NCBI GenBank assembly: GCA_949358305.1
Contig: OX442320.1
Coordinates: 1,490,501-1,554,500 of the forward strand
Origin: Strigamia acuminata
Lineage: Eukaryota; Arthropoda; Chilopoda; Geophilomorpha; Linotaeniidae
Length of the DNA: 64,000 nt
Reading direction: 5' to 3'
This document shows positions 15,903-46,250 of the stretch, piece after piece. A program made the translations under genes and the position numbers. How positions within the stretch are numbered: position 1 is the stretch's first letter; each line of letters begins with the position of its first letter. The notes beneath the pieces were generated by a model that was not told the DNA's origin, did not search any database, and saw nothing but the letters and a program-made list of their open reading frames with translations.

Positions 15903-15906
15903 GTAT

Positions 15907-21537: not shown

Positions 21538-22083
21538 TGTTGGACTTTGGAACCACTTTTCAGTTATTTAAATCGTTTTTTGATGTGAAATGGCTTTAAA
21601 ATGTTTATTTTATCATTTATCGGTAATTGTTTCCATTTTCCTGGGTTATTCAGTGTTTTCATGCTTGTTTGTAAGGAGAATGCATGATACCGGGTTAAAT
21701 GTACTCAATACATTAGGTTTCATGCATCCTCTATCTTGTTCTTATGTTTTTCATTATTATTGTTTCCATTTTCGGCCACCAGATGTCTCTGGGACATTGC
21801 AAATGGCCGCGCACACAGCCAGTGTGTTTCTCTATGTTTTCCAATGGTTTTTGGATCAATTATGTAAGTTTTCTCGAATTAAAGTGTATTTTGTTAATTA
21901 TCAGTATTAGTTTATGTGCCACACGTCTTTATAAGTGTGGTACACGCGTTTTCTGGCCCAATACAGACCCGAACTCGCGTTTACGCATCACGGCAATTTT
22001 TCCAGCTCATGCATTGCCGTGAGCACGTTATTTTCACGCTTCCAGCACGATTTATCGTGCATTTATTGCGCCACAGCGCTACA
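21538..22083 (+). repeat. 5' LTR of copia B (546 bp)
   Basis: It runs TGTTGGACTTTGG to AGCGCTACA. A TTTATAAG box (about 21928-21935) sits inside a CCACAC...GTGTGG palindrome and is the likely core promoter. The LTR is two bases from the primer site. Confidence 0.95.
21928..21935 (+). promoter_or_regulatory. TATA-like box in copia B 5' LTR
   Basis: TTTATAAG within the 22-bp near-palindrome CCACACGTCT...AAGTGTGG. Its position in the second half of the LTR fits a promoter upstream of the R region. The same box occurs in the 3' LTR near 28150. Confidence 0.45.
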
Positions 22084-22804
22084 AGTGGTAGCAGAGGCCT
22101 GGAAAGACACCAGTGCCTCGTTTTTTCACTAATTTTCCGTAAATTTCGCGATTTTTTCGCGATTTGTGCGGAAATTTTTGTTTATTTCCAGTTTTTCGCC
22201 GAATTTCCGATGTCTCGACACACTTTGTACCCCGGAGTACAGTGTGGCCACATAGAACTTCATCTCGCTTAGTACCCCGGTGTACGGCGAATTTTTTTTC
22301 AGAAGTTTTTCCCGATTTTCACAATCGGACGGCGATTTTTTTCCCGATTTTCGAAATCGGTCGGCGATCTTTCGAAGAATTCCGCATTTTTTATGCGCGG
22401 TGTGCACAGGGACGTCTGTGCACACAGATTCATCAACTTCTCCTTCTTTTTATTTCAGATTTCGAATTTATTTGTTAGTTTTAAGTTTTTTGGTGTGGGT
22501 CAATTAGAATCCTTGGCGCCCTTCGTCCAAATCTGGGCAAGCGTCACTGTATTCTTAGACAAGGCTGAGCCCTGCGCCACCTAACATTCCCGCGGCACCA
22601 GGTGGTCATAAAGGACGTTAGGGGGACACTTGTCTAAGGTTCTCAGCCAATTTTAGCATTGGCTCCCCGTCGAGGTCTTTCCGCTTCGAACAACGTTTGT
22701 GTGTGCGTCGGTAGTGCTTCGAGTGCTTCGAGTGAAAAGTGCTTCGATTTCGTCAATTGTGCTTCGATTTTCGGAAATTTTTCGACGATTTTTCCTCCGC
22801 AATC
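22084..22804 (+). other. Leader of copia B with primer site and conserved motif
   Basis: TGGTAGCAGAGG (22086-22097) is complementary to initiator tRNA-Met. The leader holds the shared 15-mer TCCCGCGGCACCAGG (22588-22602) about 200 nt before the ATG. Nearby complementary segments (CTTAGACAAGGCTGAG near 22553 and CTTGTCTAAG near 22628) could fold the region. No gene is seen. Confidence 0.75.
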
Positions 22805-25800
22805 ATGCAAAAGGCTTCCGAAGCGACGTCGGGACGTGTACCGGTCCTGACGACCGGCAACTACGAACAATGGCAACGAACAGTTAAGATGTTGCTCAAA
22901 AGTGAAGGCCTGTGGCATCACGTCACAGAAGACGGCGAGGAGGATTTTCTGAAGACGGCGGATGACAAGGGGAAACGCAAATATCAACGTCGGAAGGAAC
23001 GAGCCCTAGGAACCATTTATTGTTTGGTATCCGAAGCCAAACAGTCGGCACTCGATGGCTGCGAGACACCGAAGGAACAATGGGACATGCTCGCCAAGAT
23101 CTACGCCCCCAGTTCACTCGCCCGTCAGGCAGCTATGCGCCGACAGTTCTTGCAATTGAAACTGGAGCCGAACGAGGAGATGCCCGATTTCCTGGGGCGT
23201 GTAGACCTGATGGTTCGTCAATTGAAGGACATCGGAGAGGACATTCTCCCTCGACATCAGGCCTACCAGTACCTCGATTTTCTTCCAGCGGATTACGACC
23301 AGGCAACGTTCTCCATTTACCATTGGCCGTTGGCGAATTTTACCCCGGCCAAAGTGTCCGAACAGCTCTTGTCGGAATACCTTCGTTTGAAGTCGAAATC
23401 CGACCACGATACGAAGAAGACGTCGGCATTCGCCGCGGACAATCGCAACCGCAGTCAATCTCGCAATCCTCGTCCACTATCGCAAATTCGTTGTTTCAAT
23501 TGCGATCAGATGGGCCACTACGCGAACAAATGCCCTTTTCCGCGCCGACAATCGAAGGAACAGCAACCGGCAGCTGCACTACAAGGTCGATCTCGCAGCA
23601 AAAACCGACGACGGAAGGGAACCAATTCTCAGCAACCCGGTGGTCAAAACCGTGAAATTTCCCGCCCGCGACGTGATGCTGCGTACCTCTTGTCTGCGCC
23701 ACCAGTTGTTACAGCACCGACTGTGCATTTCCTCCAATCCCACGAATGGATCGTTGATTGTGGCGCAACAGACCACGTCTCGCACGTTCAAGCGTGGTTC
23801 ACGAACTTTGTTTCCGTTGTCCCGTTCAACATCGAGTTAGGACAAGGCAGTTCGAAGGTCACAGGCAAAGGTGACGTTCCGGTCAAGTCGCTCATCGATG
23901 GCTGCGAATGCACCGTAATGCTACGCGACGTCTTATTCGCACCTGACTTCGGCGCCAATCTTATCTCGGTTTCTCGGATTGATAAATGCGGACATCACAT
24001 CCACATTCACAACTCGGAATTGCACACGTATGAAACGGATATCAAACTAAGTGTTCTTCGGGCGAAACAGAAGTCTGGACTTTATTTCGTGGATGGGCTT
24101 ATCTCGCCATTCGCCGCTCCGACTAATGTTTCGAGTTCTCCACCCGTTTCATCGTTGCCTCCGACTCCGACACCGACCACTCTAGTGACGAAGGAAGAGG
24201 ACTTTCCCGCATTGCCCAAGTCTTCCAACAAGGCTAAGACGAAGTCGGCTGACAATATGACCGATTTCCGCTTGCCCGTCTCCTCCAACACCTTACTGGT
24301 CCCTTCACTTTTTCCTACCAGTCCTGCTCCTATTCCCGGATCCCAACCTCAACAGATCCGGATGTATTCCAATGCCCTCACATCTCCTCTTCCCGTTGCC
24401 AAGTCAAACGCAACACCACCTCCTCCTGTTGCTAAGTCAAATGCAACATCACCTCTTAAACCGGTTACTACGTCGGTCAACGTCGCGGATGCCACGGGAT
24501 TGTGGCACAGCAGACTGGGTCACCTGCACACCAAAGCCATGCGGACTTTGGCTGCTAACTCCCAGGTTTACGGACTTGATCCAGCTGCTGTTCGACAGGA
24601 ACTTTCATGCAACACGTGCCGTGTCGCCAAGTCTACGCGTGCTTCGCATAAGCCGATTTCCGCGCCTTCGACCACGAAACCGCTTGAATTGCTTCACATG
24701 GACGTCTGGGGCCCGTCGAGACTGCCTTCCATTGGTGGCGCTAATTTCGCCTTCACCATTATCGACGACGCCACCAGGTATGCCTGGCTTTTCCCGATTG
24801 CCCGTAAATCCGATGTTTTCGCTACGTTCAAAGACTTTGTTTCCCGTGTCGAACGTATAGCCGATTGCCGGATCAAAACGATTCGTACCGACCGTGGAGG
24901 AGAATTCATTTCAAGGGATTTTGACCGTTATCTCGCCGACAAGGGTATTGTTGCGCAACGGACCAACCCCGCGAGCCCACAGATGAATGGAGTCGCCGAA
25001 CGCCTGAACCGGACGATGGGCGATTATCTCCGCTCCGTTAGATCCGAAACCGGATTTCCGCATACGCTTTGGGCCGAACTTGCTGTGACATTCGTGTACA
25101 TCAAGAACCGAAGTCCACATTCGAAGCTCAACGACGAAATCCCGTACATTTTGTGGCGCCAGCGAGCTCTTTCCGTCAGACATTTTCGTAAAATCGGTTC
25201 CAAGTGCTGGGTGCACTTCACCGCGCCTGGACGCAACAAACTGGATCCTCGAGCGTGGGAGGGATTTCTCGTCGGCTACGCTTCTGGTACTCGCGGTTAT
25301 CGAGTTTTGAATCCGGCTACGAACACTGTCACCGAAACTGTTCACGTCCAAATCGATGAACGGCAGAACTTTAAACGCTCGCCCTTTTATGTTCCGGATC
25401 CGGATGACAATGCTCCACCCATGGAGGAGCCTGCTCGTGGCCACACCCCGTCGCGTGTCACTTTTCATGATAATTTCCCAACTCAACCTTGGCCTCGACG
25501 ACGTCGCGATTCGGATAACGATTCTTCCGCCGGCAGTAGTGACGATGATGGAATTATCAGTCGTGCTCAGTCTGTCGCTTCGACCGCTCCGTCTTTCGCT
25601 TCATTTGCCCCGTCCGCCGCTGCAAGCGTGCCTCTGGATGGTGAGGCTATTCCTGATGGCTCCGTGACCGCTGCCGATGACTCCGTTACTGCAGCGACCG
25701 TTGCAGGACATGGCCAATTTTCTCCAACCATACGTTCCACGCGTTTACCCCAGCTGCGACGTTCGATCTCTTACCCAACTCTTCCATGTCTTGACGATAC

Positions 25801-27712
25801 CACGGCGATGTCTGTACAGGGTTCTGACTTTGACGACGACCTTCTTGACGAAGCGGCCGCCTTGCCTATTCCCGCTCCGGGTACGCCTAATTTGGCCCCT
25901 TTACGTGCTCTTCATTGCCCTTGGAGTTTTATTGGCGGCGTTTCGCCCTTCAGCGGATGGAGGAGAGAGGAACATCTCCGGAAAGATCAAATCCCGGGAA
26001 AGATCAAGGTCGACGTTTATTATTATCCGGAACACGGTGTCCGCTTGCGGTCGCAAAACGATATCGCCGCTTATTGTTTCGCACATCGGCTACCGTATGA
26101 CGAGTCTATTTTCTTTTTTGGCAATTTGGAACACCACATGCCCTATGTTCCACCATCGCCTCATCGTGTCTTCATGTGTTTTCGGGAACCGGCCACATAT
26201 GCCGAAGCAGTTAAATTGCCCGAAGCACCGAAATGGACCGAAGCAATCGACGAGGAGCTTTCTACTTTCAAGAAGCGCGAGGTTTACAAAGAGGTTCCGC
26301 GTCCACCCGATAAGACAGTCCTAGGATGCAAGTGGATTTTCAAGTTAAAATCGGACGCCACCGGGACAATTCATCGATACCGTGCCCGACTTGTCGCACA
26401 AGGTTTCCGCCAAACAATGGGCGTTGATTTCGATGAAGTTTTTAGCCCGGTAGTTAACTTCGTGCTCATCCGATTCTTCTTCTGTCTTCTAGTCGTCTTG
26501 TTAGGATGGAGGGATACTCATCTCGACGTAAAATGTGCCTACCTCTACGGCGACCTCGACCACGAAATCTACATGCGGATTCCCGCCGGTGCCACATGCT
26601 CCTCGCCCGACAACGTCTGGTTGTTGACCAAGTCGCTTTACGGTCTTCATCAGTCGGGGCGCATGTGGTACCAAAAGCTCGACGAGACATTAACCGGACT
26701 CGGATTCCAGAAATTTCCGGCTTGTAATTGCGTTTATGCATTTGGACATTCGGCCATCATGTTAGTTTACGTTGACGACATCGTTTTATTTTACGCGTCG
26801 GAGAACATCCGAGACCGTATTCTTGCGTTAATCACGAGCAAGTTCGAAATCGTCAACCTCGGCCCGATAACCAAGTTGCTCGGAGTGGAATTCGAGCGTC
26901 GTGACGGGAAAGTCTTCATGACTCAACGCAATTACATCGATAAACTCCTCAAAAAGTTTAATGTTTCGTCCGATGCACTCATTAAAGTGCCTGTTACACC
27001 GGGAACCACGCTCGTGAAAGGCTCGTTGGACAATCTTCCGGATTTCCCGTATCGGTCGCTCATCGGATCATTACTTTTCCTCGCTTCTCGCACTCGTCCC
27101 GATATCTTATACTCGGTCATCGCTCTCTCGCAGTACAACAACTGCTACGACCAAAGCCACATTAAGTGTTTGCTTCAAGTTCTTCGATATGTGGCCAATA
27201 CGAGTAATTATTCCATCGAACTTTCGAAATGCGATTCGAGTCAACTGTGGGGTTGCACAGACGCCTCTTGGGCCTCCGACATCGCTACATCGAGATCATT
27301 CGGCGGATACATTGTCTACATCGGAAGTGTGCCCATTGGCTGGAGCTGCAAGAAACAGACCAGCGTTGCCTGCTCCACTATGGAAGCCGAATTTGTGGCA
27401 TTAGTCGAAATCGTCAAAGAATTATACTGGTTGGACAGTATTTATCAAGTATTTCCGCCTTTACGTCGATTATCGAAACCGATCATATTTTCCGATGCCC
27501 TCGCCTCGATTCAGTTCACGAACAACGACATCGAGAACTCGAAAACGAAACATATTCGAGTGAAGTTTCACTGGCTTCGTGAGTGGCATATTGCCGGTTG
27601 TTTCGAACTCCGCAAGATTCCGGGTGAGATAAATGTATCCGACATTTTCACCAAGTGGCTCAGTTCAGAGCGTCTTCGAAATTTATTATCCCGAATTTTC
27701 GTCTCGAAATAA
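22805..27712 (+). CDS. gag-pol: Copia B Gag-Pol polyprotein with MBD-like domain
   Basis: Start chosen at the first in-frame ATG (22805), giving 1635 residues. The frame is open 22 codons upstream without an ATG. Order: Gag helical region; CCHC knuckle (CFNCDQMGHYANKC, from about residue 230); retropepsin-like protease (active Asp about 318, triad D-C-G); GAG_pre-integrase with H-H-C-C (about 565-620); integrase with Asp633, Asp696 and Glu732, a D-63-D-36-E spacing; Ser/Pro-rich linker; MBD-like domain (about 1050-1105); reverse transcriptase with YVDD (Asp about 1324); and RNase H (TDASWASD about 1486, EAEF). There are no stops or shifts. It would be cleaved by its protease and act in cytoplasmic particles, then in the nucleus. 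The MBD-like module could bias integration toward methylated DNA, which is an inference. Confidence 0.95.
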   Translation: MQKASEATSGRVPVLTTGNYEQWQRTVKMLLKSEGLWHHVTEDGEEDFLKTADDKGKRKYQRRKERALGTIYCLVSEAKQSALDGCETPKEQWDMLAKIYAPSSLARQAAMRRQFLQLKLEPNEEMPDFLGRVDLMVRQLKDIGEDILPRHQAYQYLDFLPADYDQATFSIYHWPLANFTPAKVSEQLLSEYLRLKSKSDHDTKKTSAFAADNRNRSQSRNPRPLSQIRCFNCDQMGHYANKCPFPRRQSKEQQPAAALQGRSRSKNRRRKGTNSQQPGGQNREISRPRRDAAYLLSAPPVVTAPTVHFLQSHEWIVDCGATDHVSHVQAWFTNFVSVVPFNIELGQGSSKVTGKGDVPVKSLIDGCECTVMLRDVLFAPDFGANLISVSRIDKCGHHIHIHNSELHTYETDIKLSVLRAKQKSGLYFVDGLISPFAAPTNVSSSPPVSSLPPTPTPTTLVTKEEDFPALPKSSNKAKTKSADNMTDFRLPVSSNTLLVPSLFPTSPAPIPGSQPQQIRMYSNALTSPLPVAKSNATPPPPVAKSNATSPLKPVTTSVNVADATGLWHSRLGHLHTKAMRTLAANSQVYGLDPAAVRQELSCNTCRVAKSTRASHKPISAPSTTKPLELLHMDVWGPSRLPSIGGANFAFTIIDDATRYAWLFPIARKSDVFATFKDFVSRVERIADCRIKTIRTDRGGEFISRDFDRYLADKGIVAQRTNPASPQMNGVAERLNRTMGDYLRSVRSETGFPHTLWAELAVTFVYIKNRSPHSKLNDEIPYILWRQRALSVRHFRKIGSKCWVHFTAPGRNKLDPRAWEGFLVGYASGTRGYRVLNPATNTVTETVHVQIDERQNFKRSPFYVPDPDDNAPPMEEPARGHTPSRVTFHDNFPTQPWPRRRRDSDNDSSAGSSDDDGIISRAQSVASTAPSFASFAPSAAASVPLDGEAIPDGSVTAADDSVTAATVAGHGQFSPTIRSTRLPQLRRSISYPTLPCLDDTTAMSVQGSDFDDDLLDEAAALPIPAPGTPNLAPLRALHCPWSFIGGVSPFSGWRREEHLRKDQIPGKIKVDVYYYPEHGVRLRSQNDIAAYCFAHRLPYDESIFFFGNLEHHMPYVPPSPHRVFMCFREPATYAEAVKLPEAPKWTEAIDEELSTFKKREVYKEVPRPPDKTVLGCKWIFKLKSDATGTIHRYRARLVAQGFRQTMGVDFDEVFSPVVNFVLIRFFFCLLVVLLGWRDTHLDVKCAYLYGDLDHEIYMRIPAGATCSSPDNVWLLTKSLYGLHQSGRMWYQKLDETLTGLGFQKFPACNCVYAFGHSAIMLVYVDDIVLFYASENIRDRILALITSKFEIVNLGPITKLLGVEFERRDGKVFMTQRNYIDKLLKKFNVSSDALIKVPVTPGTTLVKGSLDNLPDFPYRSLIGSLLFLASRTRPDILYSVIALSQYNNCYDQSHIKCLLQVLRYVANTSNYSIELSKCDSSQLWGCTDASWASDIATSRSFGGYIVYIGSVPIGWSCKKQTSVACSTMEAEFVALVEIVKELYWLDSIYQVFPPLRRLSKPIIFSDALASIQFTNNDIENSKTKHIRVKFHWLREWHIAGCFELRKIPGEINVSDIFTKWLSSERLRNLLSRIFVSK
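25952..26121 (+). other. MBD-like domain in copia B Pol
   Basis: The segment starts SGWRREEHLRK and continues with KVDVYYYPEHGVRLRS, ending near FFFGN. Aligned by eye to MeCP2-type methyl-CpG-binding domains, it retains the first Arg (R111 position), the Asp of D-V-Y (D121 position) and an Arg exactly 12 residues later (R133 position). The same pattern occurs in C (49323-49494) and D (30465-30629). Confidence 0.72.
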
Positions 27713-27759
27713 CTTTTTTCGATCGTTTAACACCGACATTTTACATCGAAGGAGGGAAT

Positions 27760-28305
27760 TGTTGGACTTTGGAACCACTTTTCAGTTATTTAAATCGTTT
27801 TTTGATGTGAAATGGCTTTAAAATGTTTATTTTATCATTTATCGGTAATTGTTTCCATTTTCCTGGGTTATTCAGTGTTTTCATGCTTGTTTGTAAGGAG
27901 AATGCATGATACCGGGTTAAATGTACTCAATACATTAGGTTTCATGCATCCTCTATCTTGTTCTTATGTTTTTCATTATTATTGTTTCCATTTTCGGCCA
28001 CCAGATGTCTCTGGGACATTGCAAATGGCCGCGCACACAGCCAGTGTGTTTCTCTATGTTTTCCAATGGTTTTTGGATCAATTATGTAAGTTTTCTCGAA
28101 TTAAAGTGTATTTTGTTAATTATCAGTATTAGTTTATGTGCCACACGTCTTTATAAGTGTGGTACACGCGTTTTCTGGCCCAATACAGACCCGAACTCGC
28201 GTTTACGCATCACGGCAATTTTTCCAGCTCATGCATTGCCGTGAGCACGTTATTTTCACGCTTCCAGCACGATTTATCGTGCATTTATTGCGCCACAGCG
28301 CTACA
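27760..28305 (+). repeat. 3' LTR of copia B (546 bp)
   Basis: Identical by eye to the 5' LTR. It starts directly after the purine tract (27748-27759) and is followed by GTTAT. Confidence 0.95.
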
Positions 28306-30239: not shown

Positions 30240-30688
30240 CCTCCTCCACTTCCTCCGCGTCCTCCTGTTGGTGGTCTTCCTCCACCTACAATTCCTCCTC
30301 CGCCTCCTCCTGGACTTCCACCTCCTGGACCTCCACCTCCTGGAATTCCACCTCCAGGTTCACCTATTGCTACGCAACCCCCATTGAGAGCACATCTTTT
30401 GCCTCCACCTCCTGTTCACTCGCCACTGCGTCAGCCTCCGCCTGGTTCTCCGGCTGTGGGGGGCAAGTGGACTCGATCTGAGGTGATTCGGCAGTCTGGC
30501 GCGTCTATGGGTCACACTGATGTGTATTTTTTCCCGCCAGATCGTACCAGATTGCGGAGTCATGGCGACGTAGAGCGATATTGCGTTGACAATCGTTTAG
30601 CATACGATCGGAATTCCTTTGACTTTAGCACCCGAAATGTGCCAGTTCAAATGGTTGATCCCCCACCGGTAGATCCTAATGTTTCTCT
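30240..30688 (+). pseudogene. pol: Copia D: proline-rich linker and MBD-like domain
   Basis: A plus-strand frame, fused on its left to G3 sequence, carries a Pro-rich linker (many CCT repeats, about 30240-30440). An MBD-like domain follows, starting KWTRSEVIRQSG with TDVYFFPPDRTRLRS. It keeps the Arg, Asp and Arg (+12) positions seen in B and C. Copia C interrupts it at 30688. After C, at 52357, the same frame continues into reverse transcriptase, counting TCTCT once. The exact left boundary with G3 is uncertain within about 30155-30260, because both strands stay open there. D's integrase is absent. Confidence 0.72.
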
Positions 30689-31119: not shown

Positions 31120-31594
31120 TGTTGGGATTTGGAGCAAGCACATGGCGTCAGCCTGTTGATGTCGCATGTTTCCGGTTAAATGCGACCGCGATGCATCGAG
31201 TTTGTTGCCGTATCTTGTCCTGAAGTTGTGAGTCGCTTGTTCTGGATTTTATCCCGAGTGTTATGGTATTCCAAGCGGCTTATATAGCGCGGTAATCATT
31301 TGTTGTGTCGCCTGCTCGAAAGAGCTTATTGTTTGATTTGTTTTGGCTGCTTATCGATTGATAATGCCAGCATTTAGTTGCTTTTTATGTAAAGGACAAA
31401 TCAATGTTGATTATCCATTGATTTGTTCTCTTGTTTTATGTATTTGATTTGTGAAGAACAAATCACAAGCCAACTCACTTGTCTTTATGTTTTAGCAGAA
31501 TAAAGATGTCTGCCACCACAAGTCTTTAGGTTTGGCAAGTTTGAAAACATGTCTCGCTCATTTGGACTGCACTCACAACGATTAAAGGTCAACA
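31120..31594 (+). repeat. 5' LTR of N2 (475 bp)
   Basis: It runs TGTTGGGATTTGG to AAGGTCAACA. A TATATAG box (31281-31287) is about 30 bp upstream of the hairpin GCTC-GAAA-GAGC (31314-31325). A long palindrome (GGACAAATCAATG and its complement, about 31393-31427) and an AATAAAGATG block follow. Confidence 0.93.
31279..31325 (+). promoter_or_regulatory. TATA box and start-proximal GAAA hairpin of N2
   Basis: TATATAG followed about 30 bp later by GCTCGAAAGAGC, a 4-bp stem with a GNRA-type loop. In A the same layout occurs (TATATAAT 1501, GCTCAAATGAGC 1529). N3 keeps the hairpin (57158-57169) without a clear TATA. This probably marks the 5' end of the transcript. Confidence 0.5.
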
Positions 31595-33330
31595 ATGGTA
31601 GCAGAGGGTGGTTTTCGTGAGTGCTACGTTGGTTTAACGCCAAAATTCGAATTCGCGACGTTTTTCTGCACGGAAACGTCTTGTGCGCGTCGACGGAGTT
31701 TACCGGAGCGGCGGGCGGCACTCGAGTGACGATTTCCCCGACCGGACGAGCGAGTTTCGCGTGCTTCGTAAAGCAGCGAAGTCGGCGAATTGCGACCCGA
31801 AGCAGCGAGATTGGATTTCGACGGTTCTCGATTAGAAATAGCGTGGAATCATCGCTGGAAAGTGTCTAAAGACAGTAGGAACAGTTGTCAATATCATTTG
31901 AAATTTATTTGGCAGTTTATAAGCCATTTTTCGTCATTTGAAATCCACAATGGCGCGTCATTTCAAAATGGCGGCGCCCAGCACCGTTCGTGTTTGAGGA
32001 GCGGAATTGCACTGATAAGTGCATTTAACGTTTGCCAACGCCGGAATAAACGACGTGGGAACGTAGACAAGTCGTGGATTAGTCAGGACGAACATTTTCA
32101 GACGAATTGGCGAAGGTTTTTCGCCAGGACGACGACGCGAAGCGGAACGATCGTGTTTAGCGACGACGGGCACAGTTTGAAGTGTTCCCGCTTATTTGCG
32201 ACGGGTCTCAGCGCTGGATATACCAACGTGGGACTACATAAGCGTCGGTGGAGTCCTTACGAAGCGGTTTGAATTGGTTTTTCCGGCGATTTGGAGCGAC
32301 GAAACACGCAACGAACGAGCGGCGTCGCATTCGACGATAGTGCGTCGAAATTCGCGGAAAATCACCAAGATTCGACTGTGGAATTGTGTAGGAACACGAT
32401 TGGATTGCCTCTATACAGTAGGACATTTGTATTAGTCGAATTATTATTAATTTCGTTGTTTTTCTTTTGCCGAGATGTGCGGGAAAGCCACATCCAAGAT
32501 GGCGGCGCCCATCGGGATACGAGTTTGAGCTCGGGTTTGGACTGTTTTCAAGCCGAGACGTGGTCGACAACGCTGGATTTACCAACGTGGGACCACATTA
32601 GTATCTGGAGAATCGATTGGGACCGGTTTGGAGTCGAAACGGACCATTTTTCGTCGAAAACGAAGCATTTTTCGGCGGCGACGAGTGGAATTGGATTTCA
32701 CAACGTTTAGAAGACGTCGCTCATCGTAATTGAGCATTTCCACATTGAATAACGTCGGGTAGACGTGGTAAGGAGTTGCAGCTAACGTCTGGACAACGTT
32801 ACCGAATTTTTGGCGAACATTTCGAGACGATTTCGAGTTTTTTGGACGCGTTTGGTGCGACGGGCACAAACGCATCACGGATTGGCCCGTAACGGGTATC
32901 TGTGCATCGTGAGACAGGTTAAGTCTTGTGCCAGGTGCACAAGTGAATTACAACGATTCAAGCGACGTTACAACGGCGTCAACGTGGGATTTTGCAACGC
33001 AAAAGTCCCGCAAAGAAAACAACTTGCCAGCAAAGTGTTATTGTTTATTTTCTGGGTTGTCGTGAAACTTTGTATAGTTTATAAGTTTTTGTTTGGGCCT
33101 ATTAGTGTATTCTGCACCCTTTTGGGTAGTCACCCAAGTGCAGTCTTATTTCGGTTTGGGCTTGTCCGTGGTACAAGGTAGCCGTCCCGCGCCACCAGGT
33201 TGGCGGTCGGAAGCTATCAGGGCGACCAAACTCGAGTATTAATCCTTCTTATAAGGATTGTTATTTTTCGCCTATATTTTGGAGGGAAAATGTATTTATT
33301 TGTGCAAAGTGCTGCAAATAATCAGTGAAA
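31595..33330 (+). other. Leader of N2 with tRNA-iMet primer site
   Basis: TGGTAGCAGAGG begins at 31596. The 1.7-kb leader contains repeat blocks related to those of N1 and N3 (near 32205-32290 and 32570-32715), YY1-like motifs (near 31966 and 32495), a shared GTGCCAGGTGCACAAGTGAATT segment (near 32928) and the conserved 15-mer TCCCGCGCCACCAGG (33185-33199). No credible gene. Confidence 0.78.
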
Positions 33331-35178
33331 ATGTGTTTTGTTCCGTCACTAAATTTATTAGTGAGTGTGGTGTGGTCGTGTGGTGCGAGTTTTATGCCCA
33401 CAGTGTTTTGTGCACCGAGAACGTCTATAACAGACAATGTGAATGCCTGTAAGCAAACAATGGACGACACATACGAGGTACAATTGGAAATAGAAACACA
33501 GGAACAAACTGTCTTTAACGGACAAACAGTGCATAACGCACCGGATGAACAATTGAAAAAGAAAATTGATTCTTTTGAAAAAGAATATTTGAAATTGAAT
33601 CCTGATTTAGATCTGGATAAGATTGTAGTGTTACTAACCCATTTAGCACATAAAAGCGAACTAACAGGCTACATAGATACTGTGGCAAAGATCATTACGG
33701 ATCTAATCTTAGCGATTTGTAAAATGCGTGTGCGTGAAGAGAAAATGAATGGGGTTAGTAATGGTAAAGTGCGAGGCACTAACAATGTAAATCAGGAAAA
33801 TGAAATGGTTGATTCGAATGGGATTTCGGATAACTTGAGTGATTTGAACCTAATCTCAAATGATGATGTAGGAAACATCAAAACCCAACATAGACACGGG
33901 AATTTAAAATTTTTGGACAAGGTTCAAATGAAAGCTAGCAATGGGAATAAGAAATTGAATTTCACCACAGTTAAAGGTGGTAACCCCCTTAGTTATGTCA
34001 AAACAAAGAAAGGAATTAGGCCTAGTTTGACAGGAACAGATTATTCGAACCAGGTTTGGAATAAAAGGAACGAGGGGAACAGGGTTAATCAATTTAACAT
34101 TTTAGATTCTAGTAGACAGAATCAGCAAAGGGTTTTTGTGAAAACCACAGAAAAGAATCCCCCATCTTTAGATCAAAATAGGGAATTAAACAAATTGGAT
34201 TGTGCAACCACAATTAAACGTGATGACCCCCTTAAAGTAAATAGATTTACAAAAATGGAATTTTCAAACCGGGTTCGAAATAGAAAGAGAGAGGGGGATC
34301 CAAACGAAAGCGTTCTTTTGAGAAAGATTTCAGGGAAATCTAAAAGAGGTTTGAATAACCAAAAGTCAAGTATGACAACAGGGATTAAACAGAATGGTCC
34401 CTTGGATTCTGGTGCTAAAAACCAGAAAAAGGACTCTAGGAAAGGAAAGTTTAACAAAGACAGGGTTCTTCCATTCTCATTGTGGCATACCCGGATGGGG
34501 TATTCAACTGAAGAGAGTGTTCACGCCATGAATGGATCACAAGATGTTTTTGGTGTCCAATTGGAGGACACAGGGACCACCCCTATAACGGGGGACTTTG
34601 TAAAGGCAAATATTTACTCAACACAAAGAAATAATGACCGGAAAGCTTTAGAAGCTGTTCATTTGAGTGTTTGGAGGGCCCCAAATACAACTGGGGAGAA
34701 ATATATCATTATAGTCGATGATTGTTCTAAATACGCATGGTTTAGACCATTAAAGGAAAACAGCATTTTGATAGAATTTCAGAATTGGTTAAAAGAAATT
34801 AAATGCTTGAGAGGAACTGTGAACAAGGTTTATTTGGGCCCTGGGATGGATTTTTCCACAGAAGAATTGACAGCGTGGGTTGAAATAATGGAGAATTATG
34901 GAATTACAATTAATGGTGTAAATTCAGATAACCCAATGGCTGACTCCATCTCTGAGAGGGCCAATGCAGACATCATAAGCGGAGTGGAAAGTTTAGTTGT
35001 AGAAAATAAATTTCCAAGTAATTTGTGGTTGGAACTGGCCAACACAATGGTCTATTTAAGAAATAGAGCCCCCAGAATCGATTTAGACTGGAAAACCCCA
35101 TACAACGTATTGTATGACCGATGTGTATCGGTACGGCATCTCAGATGCGTGGGGTCAAAAGTTAAAATTTCCACATGA
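33331..35178 (+). pseudogene. N2 ORF, N-terminal part: integrase-like protein
   Basis: Start at ATG 33331 (MCFVPSLNLLVS), conserved in N1 and N3. The hydrophobic N-terminal segment is followed by a charged Asn/Lys-rich region of about 350 residues without zinc knuckle or protease. Then come the GAG_pre-integrase-like LWHTRMGYSTEES and the integrase-like core. As in N1, the first Asp is Ser (AVHLSVWRAP), the second is Gly (YLGPGMDF), and the Glu is kept (SISERANAD). The frame stops at 35176-35178. Compared with N1 and N3, one base has been lost in the A/T run at about 35164-35170, and the rest of the protein continues in another frame from 35175. Confidence 0.85.
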
Positions 35179-36305
35179 ACGATGGGAAAAGGTGTTCCTG
35201 GGCGGGCGCCTTAGTTGGGTATTCGACATCCAATAGAAAATATCGGGTCTGGGACACGAAGAGAAATAAAATATTTCAAACGAATACGGTACAGATATAT
35301 GAGTGGAGTTATTGGCACGAGGGGGAATTAAAACCCTCTCCGGAAATTTCAAACATTGAGAGTTACATTGAGAGTTTGGAAGCTGAAATTCCATCGAAGG
35401 TTGGGGTGCCAATATCCCCTCAACAGGTAGTCCCCTCAATATTAGAATTGTTGGAATTACAAAATCCCCCATTGTCGTCAAGTGAAGAAGTCGACATTAA
35501 TAAATGTGAAAGTTTTGAAAACGAGGGGAAACATTTAGGAAGTGATGAAGAGTTCTATGAGAGCCTCACTTGTGAACAAGATTCTTCCACTTTAGTGGAC
35601 ACAGTGGAAGATAAAATTTCCCCACCATTAAGCGAAGGAAGAATGATTGAGATAGAGGGGGAAATTAAAAAGAAACCGAAAGAATTGGAACGAGAACAGA
35701 ATTTCAGTAAAGAGGAAATTAATTTGTCATCAGAAATTCCCCCAAGTCTAACAACTAGTTTGGTTGATTTGAATTACTGTGAGTCTGTAAGCACAGAGGG
35801 GGAATATAACAAACCAAAGAAAAAGGAAAAGAGACGTAAGAAATGTAAGGACGCTGCTTTAATGAAAACAAATGACGATGAATGTCAGTTAACGGTTAAT
35901 GAACCGATATTGGATAACGAAATAACTAAAATAGAACAGTGTTTGGGTCTCACAACTGAGAATGAAATGGTTGGGACCTCGTGTTACTCCACATACTATT
36001 ATTCTGGGACGGACCTGAAGATGCTTGACATGTCCCAGTGGATTAGACAGGCCACGGTTGAACAAACGAAAAATGGGACCAATAAGATTGTTGTTTATTA
36101 CGTATCACCATTTGGAGATCAAATGTATTGCATAGAGGATGTGATAGATTGGTGTGGTGATAATGGTTTTAACCTAGATGTGCTTTGGTTCGATTTTAGT
36201 AATAAAGATCCAATACACCCGGCATATCCCGTTACTAACAAGCAGTGGGTTGAGCCCAAGAATTCAGAATTCATCGATTATGACTATACAGACATTAGTC
36301 TGTAA
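35175..36305 (+). pseudogene. N2 ORF, C-terminal part with degraded MBD-like domain
   Basis: This is the out-of-frame continuation of the N2 ORF. It begins at the end of the integrase-like fold (GALVGYS, YRVWDTK) and passes through an acidic Ser/Glu-rich stretch and a Lys-rich cluster. It ends with an MBD-like segment (SQWIRQATVEQ, KIVVYYVSPFG, DVIDWC, LWFDFS; about 36036-36201). Compared with B, C and D, the Asp of D-V-Y is Val and the Arg 12 residues on is Tyr, so methyl-CpG contacts are probably lost. N1 and N3 lack a recognisable full copy and end differently. No reverse transcriptase follows. Confidence 0.8.
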
Positions 36306-36465
36306 ATACTGTTTAAGTTTTAATGATGTTTTTATAATGGTTGTTGGGATTCACGGATTCAATGCTTTTTCGGGGCGCAGTTAGAACAATATGCAGTGTC
36401 GGGGTTACAGCGTATTCAGGTTATTCTCCTGACAGGCTTAGACCATGTGATGCTCAGAGGGGGTA
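36306..36465 (+). other. N2 3' UTR, conserved block and purine tract
   Basis: Contains CGGGGCGC-GTT-GAA-AAT-TGCAGTG and GGGGTTACAGCGTATTC (about 36373-36418), then TCAGAGGGGGTA just before the LTR. The block is shared with N1 and N3. Confidence 0.75.
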
Positions 36466-36940
36466 TGTTGGGATTTGGAGCAAGCACATGGCGTCAGCCT
36501 GTTGATGTCGCATGTTTCCGGTTAAATGCGACCGCGATGCATCGAGTTTGTTGCCGTATCTTGTCCTGAAGTTGTGAGTCGCTTGTTCTGGATTTTATCC
36601 CGAGTGTTATGGTATTCCAAGCGGCTTATATAGCGCGGTAATCATTTGTTGTGTCGCCTGCTCGAAAGAGCTTATTGTTTGATTTGTTTTGGCTGCTTAT
36701 CGATTGATAATGCCAGCATTTAGTTGCTTTTTATGTAAAGGACAAATCAATGTTGATTATCCATTGATTTGTTCTCTTGTTTTATGTATTTGACTTGTGA
36801 AGAACAAATCACAAGCCAACTCACTTGTCTTTATGTTTTAGCAGAATAAAGATGTCTGCCACCACAAGTCTTTAGGTTTGGCAAGTTTGAAAACATGTCT
36901 CGCTCATTTGGACTGCACTCACAACGATTAAAGGTCAACA
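36466..36940 (+). repeat. 3' LTR of N2 (475 bp)
   Basis: One difference from the 5' LTR was seen (GATTTGTGAAG versus GACTTGTGAAG). Followed by the TGTTT duplication and the rest of the copia C LTR. Confidence 0.93.
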
Positions 36941-36996: not shown

Positions 36997-37731
36997 AGTG
37001 GTAGCAGAGGGTGGTTTGCTATCCTTGCAGCCCACCGAAACCGCTAATTTTATCGTTATTTTCGCGAAATTCGCGAATTTGCGATAAATTTTCTATTTCC
37101 AGATTTCCGCGACGATTTTCGTCTTCAGAACGTTCGCGACGACACGCCGACGTTCTCACGCAGTCTGTGCTACCGGCTCTACGATTTGTTATTTAATTTC
37201 GCTCGAATTTCCGCGAGTTTCGCGATTTTCGAAGCGAATTTTGTGTATTTTCAGGTTTTCGCCATTTTCCGACGAGATTCGACGTTGGAAACCCGCTTTA
37301 CACAGCGTGAACGACGATTTGTTGGATATCCCGACCTCGTACACAGTGTACGGTCGTTGTCACGACGATTTTCAAATTTTTCGGCGAGAAAAACGACAAT
37401 TTCCGACGATTTTCGCATTTTAATGCGCATCAACGCCATTTTCGATTCACGAATATTGGCGCAACGTCTCATCACACTAATTAATACTTGCCTTTCAGTT
37501 GTCGTAATTAGCTTGTTAGTATTTAAGGTCGTATTAAGTTTTTGTGGGTCCTTTAGAATAGTTTTTGCTCTTCTGTTCCAGTCGGAACTACCGCATTAAC
37601 TCATTCCTAGCCAGTGCTTACCGTGGCCAACAGGTACTCCCGCGCCTCCAGGCAGGCGAACGGACCCCTGTGTGTTGGCTGGCTAGGGTTATTTGGCCAC
37701 TTCAGAAGTGGTCGCCCAATTCGATTGATAT
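36997..37731 (+). other. Leader of copia C, first part (continues 46112-46250)
   Basis: The tRNA-iMet primer site starts at 36999 (TGGTAGCAGAGGGTGGTTT). The conserved 15-mer TCCCGCGCCTCCAGG is at 37638-37652, near complementary CCA/TGG segments. Gypsy G2 splits the leader at ATAT (37728-37731). The remaining 139 bp before the ATG are at 46112-46250. No gene. Confidence 0.78.
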
Positions 37732-38302
37732 TGTTATGTGGGATTTAGGCCCACTTGAGGCTACCCACACAACTGGGATTTGATAGGAAATAAAGAGTCA
37801 TTTTAATTAGGTTTAAATTCAATCTAGTTTTTATTTAACCAGACAGCAAAGCTGTTTGATTATTCTTTCAAATGGATGAGTTTACTCTGTTTACATTGGC
37901 ACAATTCTTAAACTCAAATAATGAACTACATAAATTATATAAATTATATAAACTCTAATTATAAATCATAAGTGACACTCTGAATTGAGATGCAATCTGA
38001 AACTATTAAATGGTGATTAAATTAATAACAATTTCTGCAGCCAGCCAAGAACAGGCTGACATTGGATAGGAGGGATTTGAGTTCACTCTCAAGTGAGAGC
38101 CGGAAGAGAACTGTCGAACTTGGGCGGATTCACTTAACAGGAAAGCTCCTGTTACCCCCTTTAACTAATTGATAAGTCCAGGCAATGATGTAATCGATTG
38201 CCAACGCCATCTATGGACGAAATTTAGCAACTTTTATCCGAATTATAGCCGAATTACGCGCTACGGGTCGCCCGTTGATCGGGACGGCCTGTACGCGTAG
38301 CA
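37732..38302 (-). repeat. 3' LTR of G2 (571 bp)
   Basis: Same termini as the G1 LTR (TGTTATG...GTAGCA on the plus strand). It lacks the GTGACGA of G1 and has several substitutions relative to it. It matches 45537-46107. Confidence 0.95.
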
Positions 38303-39239
38303 ACTCCCTTTTTTGCGTAATTTTGGTCTCTAAAATTAAATTTCGGTTGAAGACAATTCTCTTTTTAGTTCTCTCTTTACCAAATATTAGATCTCAATTC
38401 ATAGTGTCAACTAAAACAATTTACATCTCTTTTTACTCCCTTTTAGATTGATGTACATACAAAAGAAAATTTCTTAATCAGTTTTGAATACAATAATTCT
38501 TACATTCATTACAGTTTTCAAAAAAAAAACTATTCAATCATAATTTCCAACTTAACTATTATGTAAAAAAAACATACAAAAACTAAAGTTCAAAATTGAA
38601 TTACCCAAATTATTTCATCCATTTTTACAATAAACCTTCATAAATAAAATACAACATTTAAATTTCACAATAAATTCTCATAAAATAATTTAACTCTTTT
38701 CAAAAAATAAATTTGTTTTTGGTTTTCATTATTTTCTTTAAAAATTTGAATTCTCTTCTAAAACATCAACTCTCTAAATCCTAGAACATTTACAAAATTT
38801 TGTGTTTGAAAATTTATTTACAATTCACATAATCAGTTTTATTCAAATTACGATAAACTTCACTAAATTCGCATTAATTACTTCGCCTCGCGACCTCGGA
38901 TTTTCGTGTCATCAAATTTAACATTATTAAGAATTTTAATCTCACTAAAACCAATTTTTATCTGCTAATACTATGTAAAATAACATTTCTAACATATTTT
39001 CCTATTCATTAAAATTAATCCAAAGTCTAAGAAAATTATCAGCACGAATGAACAAAGATCGCGATTTGTTTCGTTTTGCAAAGTTCGGTATTTTATACAC
39101 TTTTAACCTAATATTTCAACTCAAAATCATACTAAAAACACTTAAAATGTATTCACAAACCTCAAAAAACACAATTCAATTCACAAAATGACAGATAAAT
39201 ATCAAAATTTAAGCTTTGGTTCACGCAAGAAGCTCGCAT
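38303..39239 (-). other. AT-rich 3' non-coding region of G2
   Basis: It corresponds to 8046-9021 of G1 with deletions (about 39 bp shorter overall) and substituted patches in its left third. It includes the purine tract next to the LTR. No ORF. Confidence 0.8.
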
Positions 39240-42200
39240 TTACCTCGGCGAAAATGTGGAGTAGCAATGGCGGTAGGATTTTCTCGCCTTCGGTCTGAGC
39301 TTGCGCGAACGATAGTCGTCGTTTTGCGTATTCGCGCCATCTAGTGGCGGATTTTTAAGTTGTTTTCCAGTGTTTTCGAGTTCTGTTTGCGGTTCAAACA
39401 ATGATTTGAGGGAAATTTGTTCACTATCATCGATGTAACGTTCTTTTGCCTTGATTTGCTTTGTTTTTGTTGGTTTATTCACTTTTCCAACTACAATTTC
39501 TCCTTTTTTACTGATTTTTTTCACTTTTTCAGCAAATTTCACTTTCTTTTCTGGCATCTCTTTCAAAGCTTCGTCTATGTCTTCTTCAATTCTTGCTTTA
39601 TACGGTTTCAACCTTTCTACGTTAACAATATCACTTTTCTTTCGTGTGGAATTAATAATTTCATAGTCATTTGGAGCTGTTCGTCGCACAATCTCGTAGG
39701 GGCCGGAAAATTGAGGTAAAAGCTTCTCTGACAGGCCAACTTTTCTATTTATGGTCTTCAAATAAACCAATTCACCTGGTTCAAATTCTTTGTTGACTCT
39801 ATCTTTGTCGAATCTTTTCTTACTTTTCTCTGACTGCTTTTGAAGTCGTTCATTTGCAATTTTCCTAGCCTGTTGCATGAATTTTGATGTGCGTAACGTG
39901 AACTCTTTTTGGGGCAGATTTAGGTTAACATCTATTGTCAAATCCACATCATATCCTCGAAGAAGATAGTGCGGTGTGTAACCTGTTGTTTCATGAACTC
40001 CCGTGTTGTAGGAAAACAGGACAAATGGCAGGAACTCATCCCAATCGGTGTGATCATCATTAACATAACTTTGCAACATTTTTGCGAATGTCGCATTAAA
40101 TCTTTCTGTTAATCCATTGGTCCTTGGGTGGTATCCTGAGGTGGTTTTATGCAAACTTTTGAATAGATTAGATACTTCTTCAATCATTTGGTTCCTGTAT
40201 TCCGTTCCACGGTCGCTTAAAATTTCTCTTGGGCTGCCTTCCTTAAGAATCACTTCATAAACCAAAGTCTTTGCTGCTTCTAGAGCTGTTCCTACTGGTG
40301 CAGCTCTTGCAATCACAGATCTTGACAAATAATCAGTCACTACGAAAACATGTTTATTTCCTAGTTTTGACAATGGGAAAGGTCCAAGTGTGTCCATTCC
40401 AATCCGCTCGAATGGTTTTGAGACGGTTGACCACGGTTGCATTAGTCCTTTGGCTGGAGTTGTCATCGACTTTGCTTTTGCGCAGTTTTGGCAGGACAAG
40501 ACGTATTTTCTAACGTCAGTGTAAATTCTTGTCCAAAAGAATCTTGTTCTTATTCGTTTCCATGTTTTTGCCAAACCTAAGTGAGCTCCTAGTAATCCGT
40601 CGTGCATTTCATGCAATACATCCTTCTGGAGTTGTTTCGGAACTACTAGCAATAATCCTTCTGTATTTAGGGAACTTGAAGAGTTTTTCTTCCTAAATAA
40701 CGTTTTCTCGTGGAGCACGTACTGCTTAAGCGGTCGTCTCCTCTTCTTTGGAAGTTGCTCTAGGTTTTCAACTGCTGTAATTAGGTCCAGTAGTTTGGGA
40801 TCCATCCTCTGTTGTGCAGGGAGGTCCAAATTTTCCAAGAAAAGCGAAGGTAATTTTTCTATTTCTTCTTCACTCATCTGGTCTGGTATCCTACTTAGTG
40901 CATCGGCGTCTGTGTGCTTTTTGCCGCTTTTATACACTATATCGAAATCAAAGTCTACTAATTGCAATGCCCATCTGGCTAAACGTCCATTGGGGTTTCG
41001 GACTGACTTCAGCCATTGGAGGGGTTGGTGGTCGGTTATTATTTGGAATTTCTGTCCGTACAAGTAAGGTCTGAATTTCTGTACTGCAAACATTATAGCG
41101 AGACACTCTCTTTCAGTGGCGGTGTAGTTTTGTTCCGCTGTGCTCATCAGTTTGCTTGCATACGCTACAACTCGCTCCTGGTTGTTGATCTTTTGCTTCA
41201 GAATGGCTCCCATTCCATACGCACTTGCGTCGGTTGATACTATGAATGGCTGTGCAAAGTCTGGATGCGCCAACACCGGTACTGTTATTAATGCATTTCG
41301 GAGTGTGATGAACGCTGTATCGTGGGGTGGTCCCCAGTCAAACTTCTCGTCCTTTTTAGTGAGATTCACCAGAGGTTTAGAAATGTCTGCAAATCCCTTG
41401 ATGAATTTTCGGTAATAAGAGCAGAGTCCTAAAAAACCACGTAGTTGTTTAACGTTCACAGGAAGTGGAAACTTCGCGACTGCTTCCAGGTTCCTGGGAT
41501 CTGGTGAAACTCCATCAGCATCAACCACATGTCCTAAGTATCGAATGGTGTCGGTGGCAAACGTACATTTACTCAGCCTAACTTTCAGGTTTGCCATTCT
41601 GAGCTTTTCAAAAACTGCGTCCACATCCACGAGGTGCTGTTCGAATGTCTTCGAGAATATTATTAAATCATCGAGGTACGCTATGCATACCTTTCCCAAG
41701 AGGTTCCCAAGCACTTTATTCATCAATTTTTGAAAGGCGGCTGGGCTGTTACATAATCCCATTCCGAGGACATTAAACTCATAATGTCCGCTTGACGTCG
41801 TGAACGCTGTCTTTTCACGATCTTGTTCGTCTATTTCGACTTGGTGGTATCCCTGAATGAGATCCATCATCGAAAAATACTTCGCACCCGCTAGTTGATC
41901 TAGGGTGTCGTCGATACGTGGTAAGGGATAAACCATTTTCTTCGTTACTGCGTTTAAACGTCTCCAATCAACGCAAAATCTCCATCTGCCGTCTCTTTTC
42001 TTAATGAGTAGTACTGGTGCACTCCATGGGCTCTCGGATTCTCTAATTACTCCTTGTTCAAGTAACTTCTTTGTTTCAGCCTCTTCGATTTCTTTTTCCT
42101 TAATGGATCGTCTATAAGGTTGCAAGTGGATTGGAGGAGAGTCTCCTGTATCAATACGATGTTTTATTGCCTGTGCTCTGCCTAAGTCACTGTCAGATGT

Positions 42201-43064
42201 TGCAAATCTATCCGAATTCTTCTCTAGCAGCTGTCGCATCAATTCCTGTTGAGTTGGTGTCATATTCTCATTTGCCATGGCCTTGCTAAAGTCAAATTGA
42301 TCAGCTCTTTTTTCATCTAACAAGCCAGACTCAATCACGTAAAATGCCTTTGCAACTGCTGAGTTTTTTCCTAAATAGATTGTCTTTTTAGTTGGATTCG
42401 CAACACGCAGAACTCCTTCACCTTTTCTGAATGTAGTCAATGTCTTGCAACAAATCACACCAAATCGATCGATTACTCCACTCAATGGTTCTACAAACAA
42501 TTCGTCATCAACTTTCTTTGCTATCTTTATTGGTACTACACATTCATGTAAAGCTGGTATCGTTATTGGTTTTAAAACTCGCGCAATATAGTTTTGTTCA
42601 GTGTAATTCTTGGACATTGGGAATACTTCTTGTTGTTTATCTTTTGGCCCTACAAAGATCTTCTGTTGGTCATAGTCGAGCTGGCACCTTGCAGATCTCA
42701 AAAAATTATCTCCTAGCAGTAAATGGTTGCCAAATCCGCTGACAATCAGCACTTCAATAGTATGTTGTTGTTGTCCAACATCAATGGTAATCCTGGTTTT
42801 TCCTACTGGGGTTATCAATGAACCATCTACAACTCTAAGTCGAACATGTGGACATGGTTGGTATTTGAGCTGCAGAGTTCTTACCAAATCTTCATTAATG
42901 ATGTTGCGATAACCTCCGGAATCCAAGACACCAGTGACTTCCAAACCATTCACTACTACTGGAATCTGCAAAAGTTCATCTGTGGCGTTCAACTCAATGA
43001 TTTCTAATTTTCTCTTTTTGAATTTCTTCTTGTTTTTCCGTCTTTGTGGCCATTCTAGTTTCCC
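39240..43064 (-). CDS. pol: Gypsy G2 Pol polyprotein (-1 frameshift from gag)
   Basis: 1275 codons, the same architecture as G1 Pol: basic segment, DSGG protease, reverse transcriptase with YLDD, RNase H (STDASAYG, DADALSRI), HHCC zinc domain, DDE integrase (MDTLGPF, LSDRGTEY, NGLTERFN) and Lys-rich tail. Differences from G1 are few: for example PVGKTRI for PGGKTKI early in the protease, and a cluster near the C-terminus (GEIVVGKVNKP versus GEIAVEILDKP). The frame is open without stops. I take the start as the GGGAAAC shift site, since pol has no convincing ATG of its own. Confidence 0.95.
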   Translation of the reverse strand, partial: GKLEWPQRRKNKKKFKKRKLEIIELNATDELLQIPVVVNGLEVTGVLDSGGYRNIINEDLVRTLQLKYQPCPHVRLRVVDGSLITPVGKTRITIDVGQQQHTIEVLIVSGFGNHLLLGDNFLRSARCQLDYDQQKIFVGPKDKQQEVFPMSKNYTEQNYIARVLKPITIPALHECVVPIKIAKKVDDELFVEPLSGVIDRFGVICCKTLTTFRKGEGVLRVANPTKKTIYLGKNSAVAKAFYVIESGLLDEKRADQFDFSKAMANENMTPTQQELMRQLLEKNSDRFATSDSDLGRAQAIKHRIDTGDSPPIHLQPYRRSIKEKEIEEAETKKLLEQGVIRESESPWSAPVLLIKKRDGRWRFCVDWRRLNAVTKKMVYPLPRIDDTLDQLAGAKYFSMMDLIQGYHQVEIDEQDREKTAFTTSSGHYEFNVLGMGLCNSPAAFQKLMNKVLGNLLGKVCIAYLDDLIIFSKTFEQHLVDVDAVFEKLRMANLKVRLSKCTFATDTIRYLGHVVDADGVSPDPRNLEAVAKFPLPVNVKQLRGFLGLCSYYRKFIKGFADISKPLVNLTKKDEKFDWGPPHDTAFITLRNALITVPVLAHPDFAQPFIVSTDASAYGMGAILKQKINNQERVVAYASKLMSTAEQNYTATERECLAIMFAVQKFRPYLYGQKFQIITDHQPLQWLKSVRNPNGRLARWALQLVDFDFDIVYKSGKKHTDADALSRIPDQMSEEEIEKLPSLFLENLDLPAQQRMDPKLLDLITAVENLEQLPKKRRRPLKQYVLHEKTLFRKKNSSSSLNTEGLLLVVPKQLQKDVLHEMHDGLLGAHLGLAKTWKRIRTRFFWTRIYTDVRKYVLSCQNCAKAKSMTTPAKGLMQPWSTVSKPFERIGMDTLGPFPLSKLGNKHVFVVTDYLSRSVIARAAPVGTALEAAKTLVYEVILKEGSPREILSDRGTEYRNQMIEEVSNLFKSLHKTTSGYHPRTNGLTERFNATFAKMLQSYVNDDHTDWDEFLPFVLFSYNTGVHETTGYTPHYLLRGYDVDLTIDVNLNLPQKEFTLRTSKFMQQARKIANERLQKQSEKSKKRFDKDRVNKEFEPGELVYLKTINRKVGLSEKLLPQFSGPYEIVRRTAPNDYEIINSTRKKSDIVNVERLKPYKARIEEDIDEALKEMPEKKVKFAEKVKKISKKGEIVVGKVNKPTKTKQIKAKERYIDDSEQISLKSLFEPQTELENTGKQLKNPPLDGANTQNDDYRSRKLRPKARKSYRHCYSTFSPR

Positions 43065-44479: not shown

Positions 44480-45536
44480 CTCCTCTTCTTTCTTAACACC
44501 TGAGAGCAGGTAATCCGTTACGTATTTTGAAAACGCGTAACGTTTAGAGTCCGCAATGATTTATTAAATGTAGAGAAGGCACAATCCTTTGAATTAGAGC
44601 AAATTCCTTTTTATAGATAAACACTTTTCACAAAACAAACACTTTCACTCTCTGAAACAAATCAACAATTAAACACTTCAATTTTCACGGTCATTATTTT
44701 TACATAATTCAAAAATATCAAAACAATCAAATTTTCACAGTCATTCATATAAAGAACACCAAATAACTATCAGTAAATATTCAACAACAATATCCTGAAA
44801 AACAATCAATCATTAAACAATTCATTCCCACTCCAATTTTATCAATTTCCAAAGTCACAAAGAAATTCAAAGTCTCCAAATCAATCAACTTATTATAATC
44901 TAACTTCTTATTAAACAAACACTTTCATCAAAAAAAAACAAAAAGAAATTTCCTGAAAATTCAAAATTCATTGATTAATTTCAACCAAATTCTTTATTAA
45001 ATTCACTATAGTAAGTCAAATGTTATTCAACAACTCAAAATTCATCAACAAACTTCAACTTAATTATCTTATTAAATGAACACTTTTTCACAAATAATTC
45101 AATAAACAACTCAAATACTGTTCAAACTTCAAATCAAACAACACCAAATGTAAAGTCATCCAATTAAATATTCAATTGCTTTTTTCAGCTTTTCTAATTT
45201 TAACTTCATTAGCTCTAATTGACTCTATTAACAATGAGTCACTCTTATTTTTCCTATGATTTCTTGCAGTGAGTCATGCATATTCAAATTAGGTTGGGAT
45301 CTTTCTAAATTTTATAAGGTTTTCAAACAATTTTTAAAGCTAATTTTCACCAATTTTAACTCTAATTTTGCCAATTTTTGAGTTTTTCAACTCTAGATTT
45401 TGATTTCTTAACCTAATTTTGCAAATTTTTAATGAATTTTCACAAATTTTGACTATTTTTTATTAAATTTTCAAATTTGGGTTTTTCTATTTTAATTTTG
45501 GGGCAGTGTTTGGGGAAACCGCAATCTCCACCACTT
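44480..45536 (-). other. 5' non-coding region of G2
   Basis: AT-rich, about 1.06 kb, with the putative primer site TGGTGGAGATTGCGG on the minus strand ending at 45533. Ends match G1 closely, but the middle (about 44600-45130) is rearranged relative to G1. Confidence 0.7.
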
Positions 45537-46107: not shown

Positions 46108-46250
46108 ATATCCGCTTTGACAGTGCTCCGATTAGTGCGCCGTATTTGTGTAGTGCTATGCGATATTGTGCACCGAGACCGTCAAGTGCTCCAACTGTAC
46201 CATTCTCCATCCAGTGTGTTTTGCTACGGATTGTTTCGTAACTCCACGTC

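Follow-up and report, generated by a model that had tools for sequence, protein, structure and literature searches.

Chromoviruses of the Ty3/gypsy group carry a chromatin reader, the chromodomain, in Pol, where it biases target choice; it reads histone methylation and lies at the C-terminus of integrase. MBD-type copia elements of Strigamia maritima and of spiders are reported, with binding to methylated DNA. The targeting of chromodomain retrotransposons is the subject named in the title of Gao 2008, and the capture of a methyl-CpG-binding domain (MBD) by an arthropod retrotransposon family is announced in the title of de Mendoza, Pflueger and Lister (2019, Genome Research 29:1277-1286), and a de Mendoza 2019 paper is cited elsewhere for the methylation of transposable elements in some arthropods. 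Retrotransposons carrying cytosine methyltransferases are described as well (de Mendoza 2018, PMC5890265), and the terms "MBD" and "methyl-CpG" are absent from the main text of that paper.

The three copia elements analyzed here, designated B, C, and D, share with the family of 2019 the presence of an MBD within an arthropod retrotransposon. They appear to differ from it in probably belonging to another host species, in occurring as several families side by side, and in being accompanied by elements that are devoid of reverse transcriptase (RT) and whose MBD-like end lacks the contact triad. Like the chromoviruses, they have a chromatin reader in Pol; in these copias it is an MBD that lies between integrase and RT. 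The domain and its contact residues are those of host MeCP2 and MBD1-4, here fused in a Gag-Pol polyprotein. Both they and the methyltransferase retrotransposons (PMC5890265) took up a host DNA-methylation gene, which in the latter is a writer enzyme and here a reader. The initial annotation was aware of no such domain in copia Pol; since an arthropod retrotransposon family that captured an MBD is already in print (de Mendoza, Pflueger and Lister 2019, by its title), the novelty of the idea falls, and B, C, and D are new members of a kind of element known since 2019. With them, the use of a host epigenetic reader by a mobile element, published before, is seen in a further arthropod genome, which would be a second geophilomorph centipede with MBD copias if the family of 2019 includes elements of Strigamia maritima, as is reported.

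An MBD in copia Pol

The features of the window, that is, the whole 64-kb stretch of DNA analyzed, are collected in Table 1. Element B is a Ty1/copia element by its domain order (gag, integrase, RT), its LTRs, and a 5-bp target duplication, GTTAT, at 21533-21537 and 28306-28310; the PBS-like sequence TGGTAGCAGAGG lies directly 3' of the 5' LTR. Pfam ordered the B Gag-Pol as Retrotran_gag_2, zinc knuckle, Pol_BBD, gag_pre-integrs, rve, SH3_retrovirus, MBD, and RVT_2. No LTR pair was found for element C, which was assigned to Ty1/copia by domain order only, and D is a fragment of a copia element interrupted by the inserted element E. Further pieces of the E type were seen at 15843-17582 and 6300-7469, both on the minus strand; the E-type elements and pieces in the window encode an integrase-like protein that has S,G,E for D,D,E wherever this part is present, and their C-terminus is either MBD-like and devoid of contact residues or an unrelated tail.

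Table 1. Positions of the elements, open frames, and MBD modules in the window
Feature	Position	Strand	Remarks
Element B, complete young copia	21538..28305	+	LTRs 21538-22083 / 27760-28305, identical
B Gag-Pol open frame	22736..27712	+	stop to stop, 1658 aa
B MBD	25952..26179	+	Pfam, copia-MBD profile, MeCP2 mapping
B MBD contact codons	R111 25979-25981, D121 26012-26014, Y123 26018-26020, R133 26048-26050	+	counted from the W codon at 25958
C Gag-Pol open frame	46242..51089	+	1615 aa; domain order as in B
C MBD, contact residues intact	49326..49547	+	Pfam, copia-MBD profile, MeCP2 mapping
D MBD, contact residues intact	30465..30677	+	inside open fragment 30135-30809 of copia element
Element E	31120..36940	+	LTRs 31120-31594 / 36466-36940, 99.8% identical; target duplication TGTTT
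E open frames	33322-35178 and 35166-36305 (33322..36305)	+	different frames; integrase-like region with S,G,E replacing D,D,E, then SH3-like domain
E MBD-like domain	36033..36257	+	scaffold retained; R111/D121/R133 equivalents changed to E/V/Y
Third element, E type	57089..62342	+	LTRs 57089-57436 / 61995-62342; target duplication GAAAA
Gypsy element, control family	37731..46108	-	sister copy 7467-15902

The initial annotation had placed an MBD-like module, defined by a set of short motifs, between integrase and RT of three copia elements. The motifs were present at 25952-26121 in B and at 49323-49494 in C, in frame and inside long open copia Pol frames on the plus strand, and the proposed position held in both, where Pfam ordered the SH3-like integrase domain, the MBD, and RVT_2. 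The D module was recovered at 30465-30629 on the plus strand by tblastn, with E values of 3e-9 against B and 1.5e-10 against C. A fourth module, in E (36033-36257), without R111, D121, and R133, had been overlooked. The Pfam MBD profile scored 24.5 bits on the whole B protein (E 2.1e-5), over the cut-off of 21; the score for C was below the cut-off with the whole protein (18.9 bits) and 25.2 bits as an isolated piece, and that for E was 17.6 bits, below the cut-off. With a profile built from 15 copia MBDs (A1), the four modules scored 87-93 bits each, and no other score in the six frames of the window was higher than 8 bits. Because these four copies are themselves members of the profile, the independent evidence consists of the Pfam and PDB matches. 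All 15 members matched PF01429 at E 0.01 or better. When a single sequence was searched against the PDB, the best match was MBD2 (E 8e-4), followed by some lectin chains at about 1e-3; with the 15-member profile, the solved structure of MeCP2 came first (1.2e-13), then MBD2, MBD4, MBD3, and MBD1. No Pfam MBD match was obtained at E up to 1 in the gypsy sister copy. Taken together with the MeCP2 contact residues, the Pfam match of B and the PDB matches strongly support the identity proposed earlier, and on these sequence comparisons the domain in B, C, and D is a real MBD (PF01429).

When B, C, and D were mapped on MeCP2, W104, R106, R111, D121, V122, Y123, R133, and S134 were all present. The correspondence to the MeCP2 contacts R111, D121, and R133 was thus confirmed, with Y123 in addition, and so was the spacing, counted on the sequences, that puts the Arg exactly 12 residues past the Asp in all three; the Arg-Lys pair (R111-K112) occurred in B and C, as had been noted, and is R-Q in D. 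Among 33 copia proteins plus D, 34 rows in all (the E, F, and G types described below being left out), R111 was kept in 33, D121 in 30, Y123 in 27, and R133 in 28. Two MBD-copia families of the host, Q and K, have Y123 changed to I or V. Three metagenome copias of the MBD clade (P0008, P0010, and P0011) form a separate subclade with a degenerate MBD region that has lost D121 and Y123.

When only the MBD of B served as protein query, no matches were obtained; the integrase-RT part yielded 255 relatives, and PF01429 was precomputed in 9 of the 120 listed. The copia-MBD profile detected an MBD at i-E 0.01 or better in 32 of 128 copia proteins (122 P-numbered ones, with B and C included, and six of our own loci). 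In an RT tree of 90 rows, from which P0091-P0124 and, for too short an RT match, four of 30 MBD rows (L003, L006, P0041, and P0050) were omitted, 26 MBD rows and three weak-MBD rows formed one clade with support of 100/100, including a copia of the spider Stegodyphus mimosarum. P0028, in which no MBD was detected, joined this clade next (100/95; midpoint root). A single MBD clade fits one capture of the domain.

Copy number, selection, and CpG content

The mitochondrial COX1 of the host was nearest to that of Mecistocephalus marmoratus (84%), by a small margin over horseshoe crabs (82-83%), and Bothropolys followed at 81%. Mecistocephalus belongs to the Geophilomorpha, as does Strigamia, and the host is taken to be an arthropod, probably a geophilomorph centipede. 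The host assembly (237.5 Mb, 157 contigs) was searched for further copies. Among 108 scored of 2788 candidates, at least 45 copies of B were found at 98-100% amino acid identity, together with sister families at 94% and 89%, and many B copies were open across the whole frame; B is young and recently amplified. The dN/dS of the MBD in three pairs of B against its sisters was 0.10-0.15, and that of the linker and RT 0.03-0.06, ratios by which the B MBD is judged to be under purifying selection. In a PF01429 scan of the host genome, which gave 1092 candidates, all 150 that were scored exceeded the cut-off. Classed by motifs, some four loci of this genome are DNMT1-like and one is DNMT2-like (L031-L041).

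To describe the surroundings of the insertions, we counted CpG per 100 bp in the first 300 bp (273-300) outside the 3' LTR. The B flanks (20 of 45 listed copies plus the window copy, n = 21) gave 10.5, the Q family 7.3 (n = 12), the K family 6.1 (n = 11), and E/F-type elements lacking the triad 7.2 (n = 7); the controls, gypsy flanks (n = 7) and random sites (n = 20), both gave 3.4 and did not differ from each other (p = 0.76). Flank CpG was higher in B than in gypsy (p = 0.0035) and random sites (p = 2e-5), and higher than in gypsy in Q (p = 0.0035), K (p = 0.023), and the triad-less elements (p = 0.015), p values that come from many uncorrected tests on small samples with one gypsy family and random sites as controls. 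No difference was found between B and Q plus K together (p = 0.076). In CpG observed/expected (o/e), the flanks of K (p = 0.12) and of the triad-less elements (p = 0.26) did not differ from random sites. GC content relative to gypsy was higher in the flanks of B (p = 0.007) and of the triad-less elements (p = 0.021), and not different in those of Q (p = 0.42) and K (p = 0.19); because B and triad-less flanks are both GC-richer than gypsy, CpG and GC are not separable in them. Four short G-type triad-less flanks (89-95 bp; mean 5.0) were kept apart, outside the tests. Flanks were dropped in Q (3 of 15 tried; LTR end missing in L123 and L127, inner LTR in L119), K (1 of 12, L140), and the triad-less set (L047, L048, L049, and L054, LTR ends unclear); among the gypsy flanks, two came from the window and five begin about 3.27 kb past the match and contain no LTR, so that they lie close to the LTR end without starting precisely there.

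Some of the B insertions (L074, L077, L078, L085, L087, and L088) lie in CpG-dense repeats. Five of the 20 B flanks have one GC-rich repeat in common, with 16-18 CpG per 100 bp, and another flank consists of a tandem of CGCGCCGCC, with 33. With four of the five common-repeat flanks removed, the B mean was still 9.2 (p = 0.009 against gypsy).

These data supported indirectly the role in target choice that the initial annotation had suggested: CpG is denser in the 3' flanks of MBD copias than at random sites or next to gypsy elements, but the flanks of elements without the contact residues are CpG-dense too. The comparison with the triad-less elements, which did not differ from B (p = 0.33), gave no evidence that intact contact residues alone explain the CpG-dense flanks or that the bias depends on them; in the triad-less elements, mobilization in trans would account for it.

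The gypsy pair in the window (8380-14477 and 38599-44695) showed an excess of CpG transitions, at 15 of 418 CpG positions against 41 of 5678 positions elsewhere (p = 3e-6), which hints at germline methylation of some repeats. No such excess was detected in copies of K (ratio 1.10, p = 0.83, 11 of 16 copies kept) or Q (ratio 1.24, p = 0.42, 5 of 8 kept), from which the more divergent copies had been removed; all 16 and 8 copies gave ratios of 1.11 and 0.84. Four G-type copies gave a ratio of 2.10 (p = 0.18). As K and Q lack the excess and the CpG o/e of the window is 1.08, there is no sign of germ-line methylation in these copies. The suggestion that the elements hide in silenced chromatin was thus not borne out, the deamination excess being absent from the two MBD-copia families and present in the gypsy pair.

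Possible roles of the MBD

We consider it probable that B, C, and D represent the MBD-carrying copia kind known from arthropods, in which the MBD docks the pre-integration complex on CpG-dense DNA and so steers insertion there. The host-type MBD lies between the end of integrase and RT of copia Pol and would most likely be released or exposed together with integrase, with which it would travel. It would then dock the complex on CpG-dense, presumably methylated, DNA by binding methyl-CpG, and new copies would land in such DNA, not in average CpG-poorer DNA, with the MBD as the putative cause of the flank bias. Directly supported parts of this scheme are the domain identity, the intact contacts, the one RT clade, the purifying selection on the B MBD, the recent amplification of B, and the CpG-dense 3' flanks. 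Several families are present with many young copies in this one genome, which makes the targeting idea testable: elements with an intact, an altered, or no reader can be compared side by side.

Some members of the MBD family do not need methylation, and the fold might be kept in copia as a general DNA- or protein-binding module, the CpG-dense flanks arising from a preference of copia integrase or from open GC-rich chromatin. This explanation, which we regard as unlikely but as the strongest of the alternatives, would accommodate the persistence of elements with Y123 changed (K and Q) or without contacts (E, F, and G types), the CpG-dense flanks of K, Q, and the seven E/F-type elements (less so the four short G-type flanks), and the lack of a deamination signature in K and Q. 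It sits less well with the retention of R111, D121, and R133 in 33, 30, and 28 of the 34 rows of the deep clade and with the strong purifying selection in the B family.

Host MBD proteins are linked to silencing, a general observation that lends something to a different proposal, that the MBD takes effect once a copy is integrated, or acts upon the host, by binding methylated copies to block or recruit silencing, so that it tunes copy number, not target choice. The numerous B copies, many of them open over the whole frame, would agree with this, but the bias by which the 3' flanks depart from those of gypsy speaks for an effect at integration, even if selection after insertion could shape flanks, and we hold such a role to be improbable. 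That the resemblance to an MBD is convergent or due to chance has a negligible probability: the whole C protein falls under the Pfam cut-off, but the family profile reached MeCP2 at E 1.2e-13, 15 of 15 members matched, the contacts are conserved, and the elements form one clade.

Elements of the E type

The MBD-like ends of E and its relatives occur in three forms (E, F, and G), all of which lack R111, D121, and R133 and retain the W, R106, a YxSP-like strand, and the FDF end; the MBD-like region of E also gave a weak match to P0006. No gag or RT was found in E or in the third element by tblastn with four copia queries. The integrase-like region of the E type was about 27-33% identical to that of copia by tblastn, with one 36-aa piece at 47%. 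Its catalytic positions read S,G,E in all seven E-type sequences counted (L047, in which the anchor is missing, was outside this count) and D,D,E in all six copias. Of the two marks by which we define an autonomous copia, RT and an integrase with catalytic D,D,E, the E type shows neither. The third element likewise has an integrase-like region with S,G,E; its C-terminus differs from that of E, and no MBD was found in it. Some E-type copies have internal stops, and others have frames of more than 1000 aa without stops. The pairwise dN/dS, where computable, was 0.15-0.48 for the MBD-like part and 0.27-0.82 for the part before it, suggesting that constraint would be moderate at most.

The E-type elements and the MBD copias have a PBS-like sequence and LTR starts in common, which, together with the flank bias, agrees with the E type being non-autonomous relatives that would be moved in trans by the MBD-copia machinery. 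RT-less LTR elements with a broken D,D,E integrase, some of them ending in a contact-less MBD-like domain, are possibly new; the literature listings and abstract openings searched showed neither MBD copias lacking the triad nor copia relatives with a dead integrase, of which the 2019 paper of de Mendoza and colleagues may make mention. More tentatively, and with some doubt on our side, we propose a lineage of non-autonomous LTR elements that has retained from copia only a dead integrase and, in several subfamilies, a contact-less MBD fold, with long frames open in some copies; the product of these might be a tether or decoy that enters the intasome of active MBD copias and steers or restrains it, which would make the lineage a parasite of a parasite, made out of the latter's own targeting machinery. 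Such elements would serve as a natural experiment on the share of the MBD in targeting. Two copies, L066 and L067, were 94% identical in DNA to the E-type copy L044 around the MBD-like part and more diverged in the remainder, which may be read as a sign of recombination between subfamilies.
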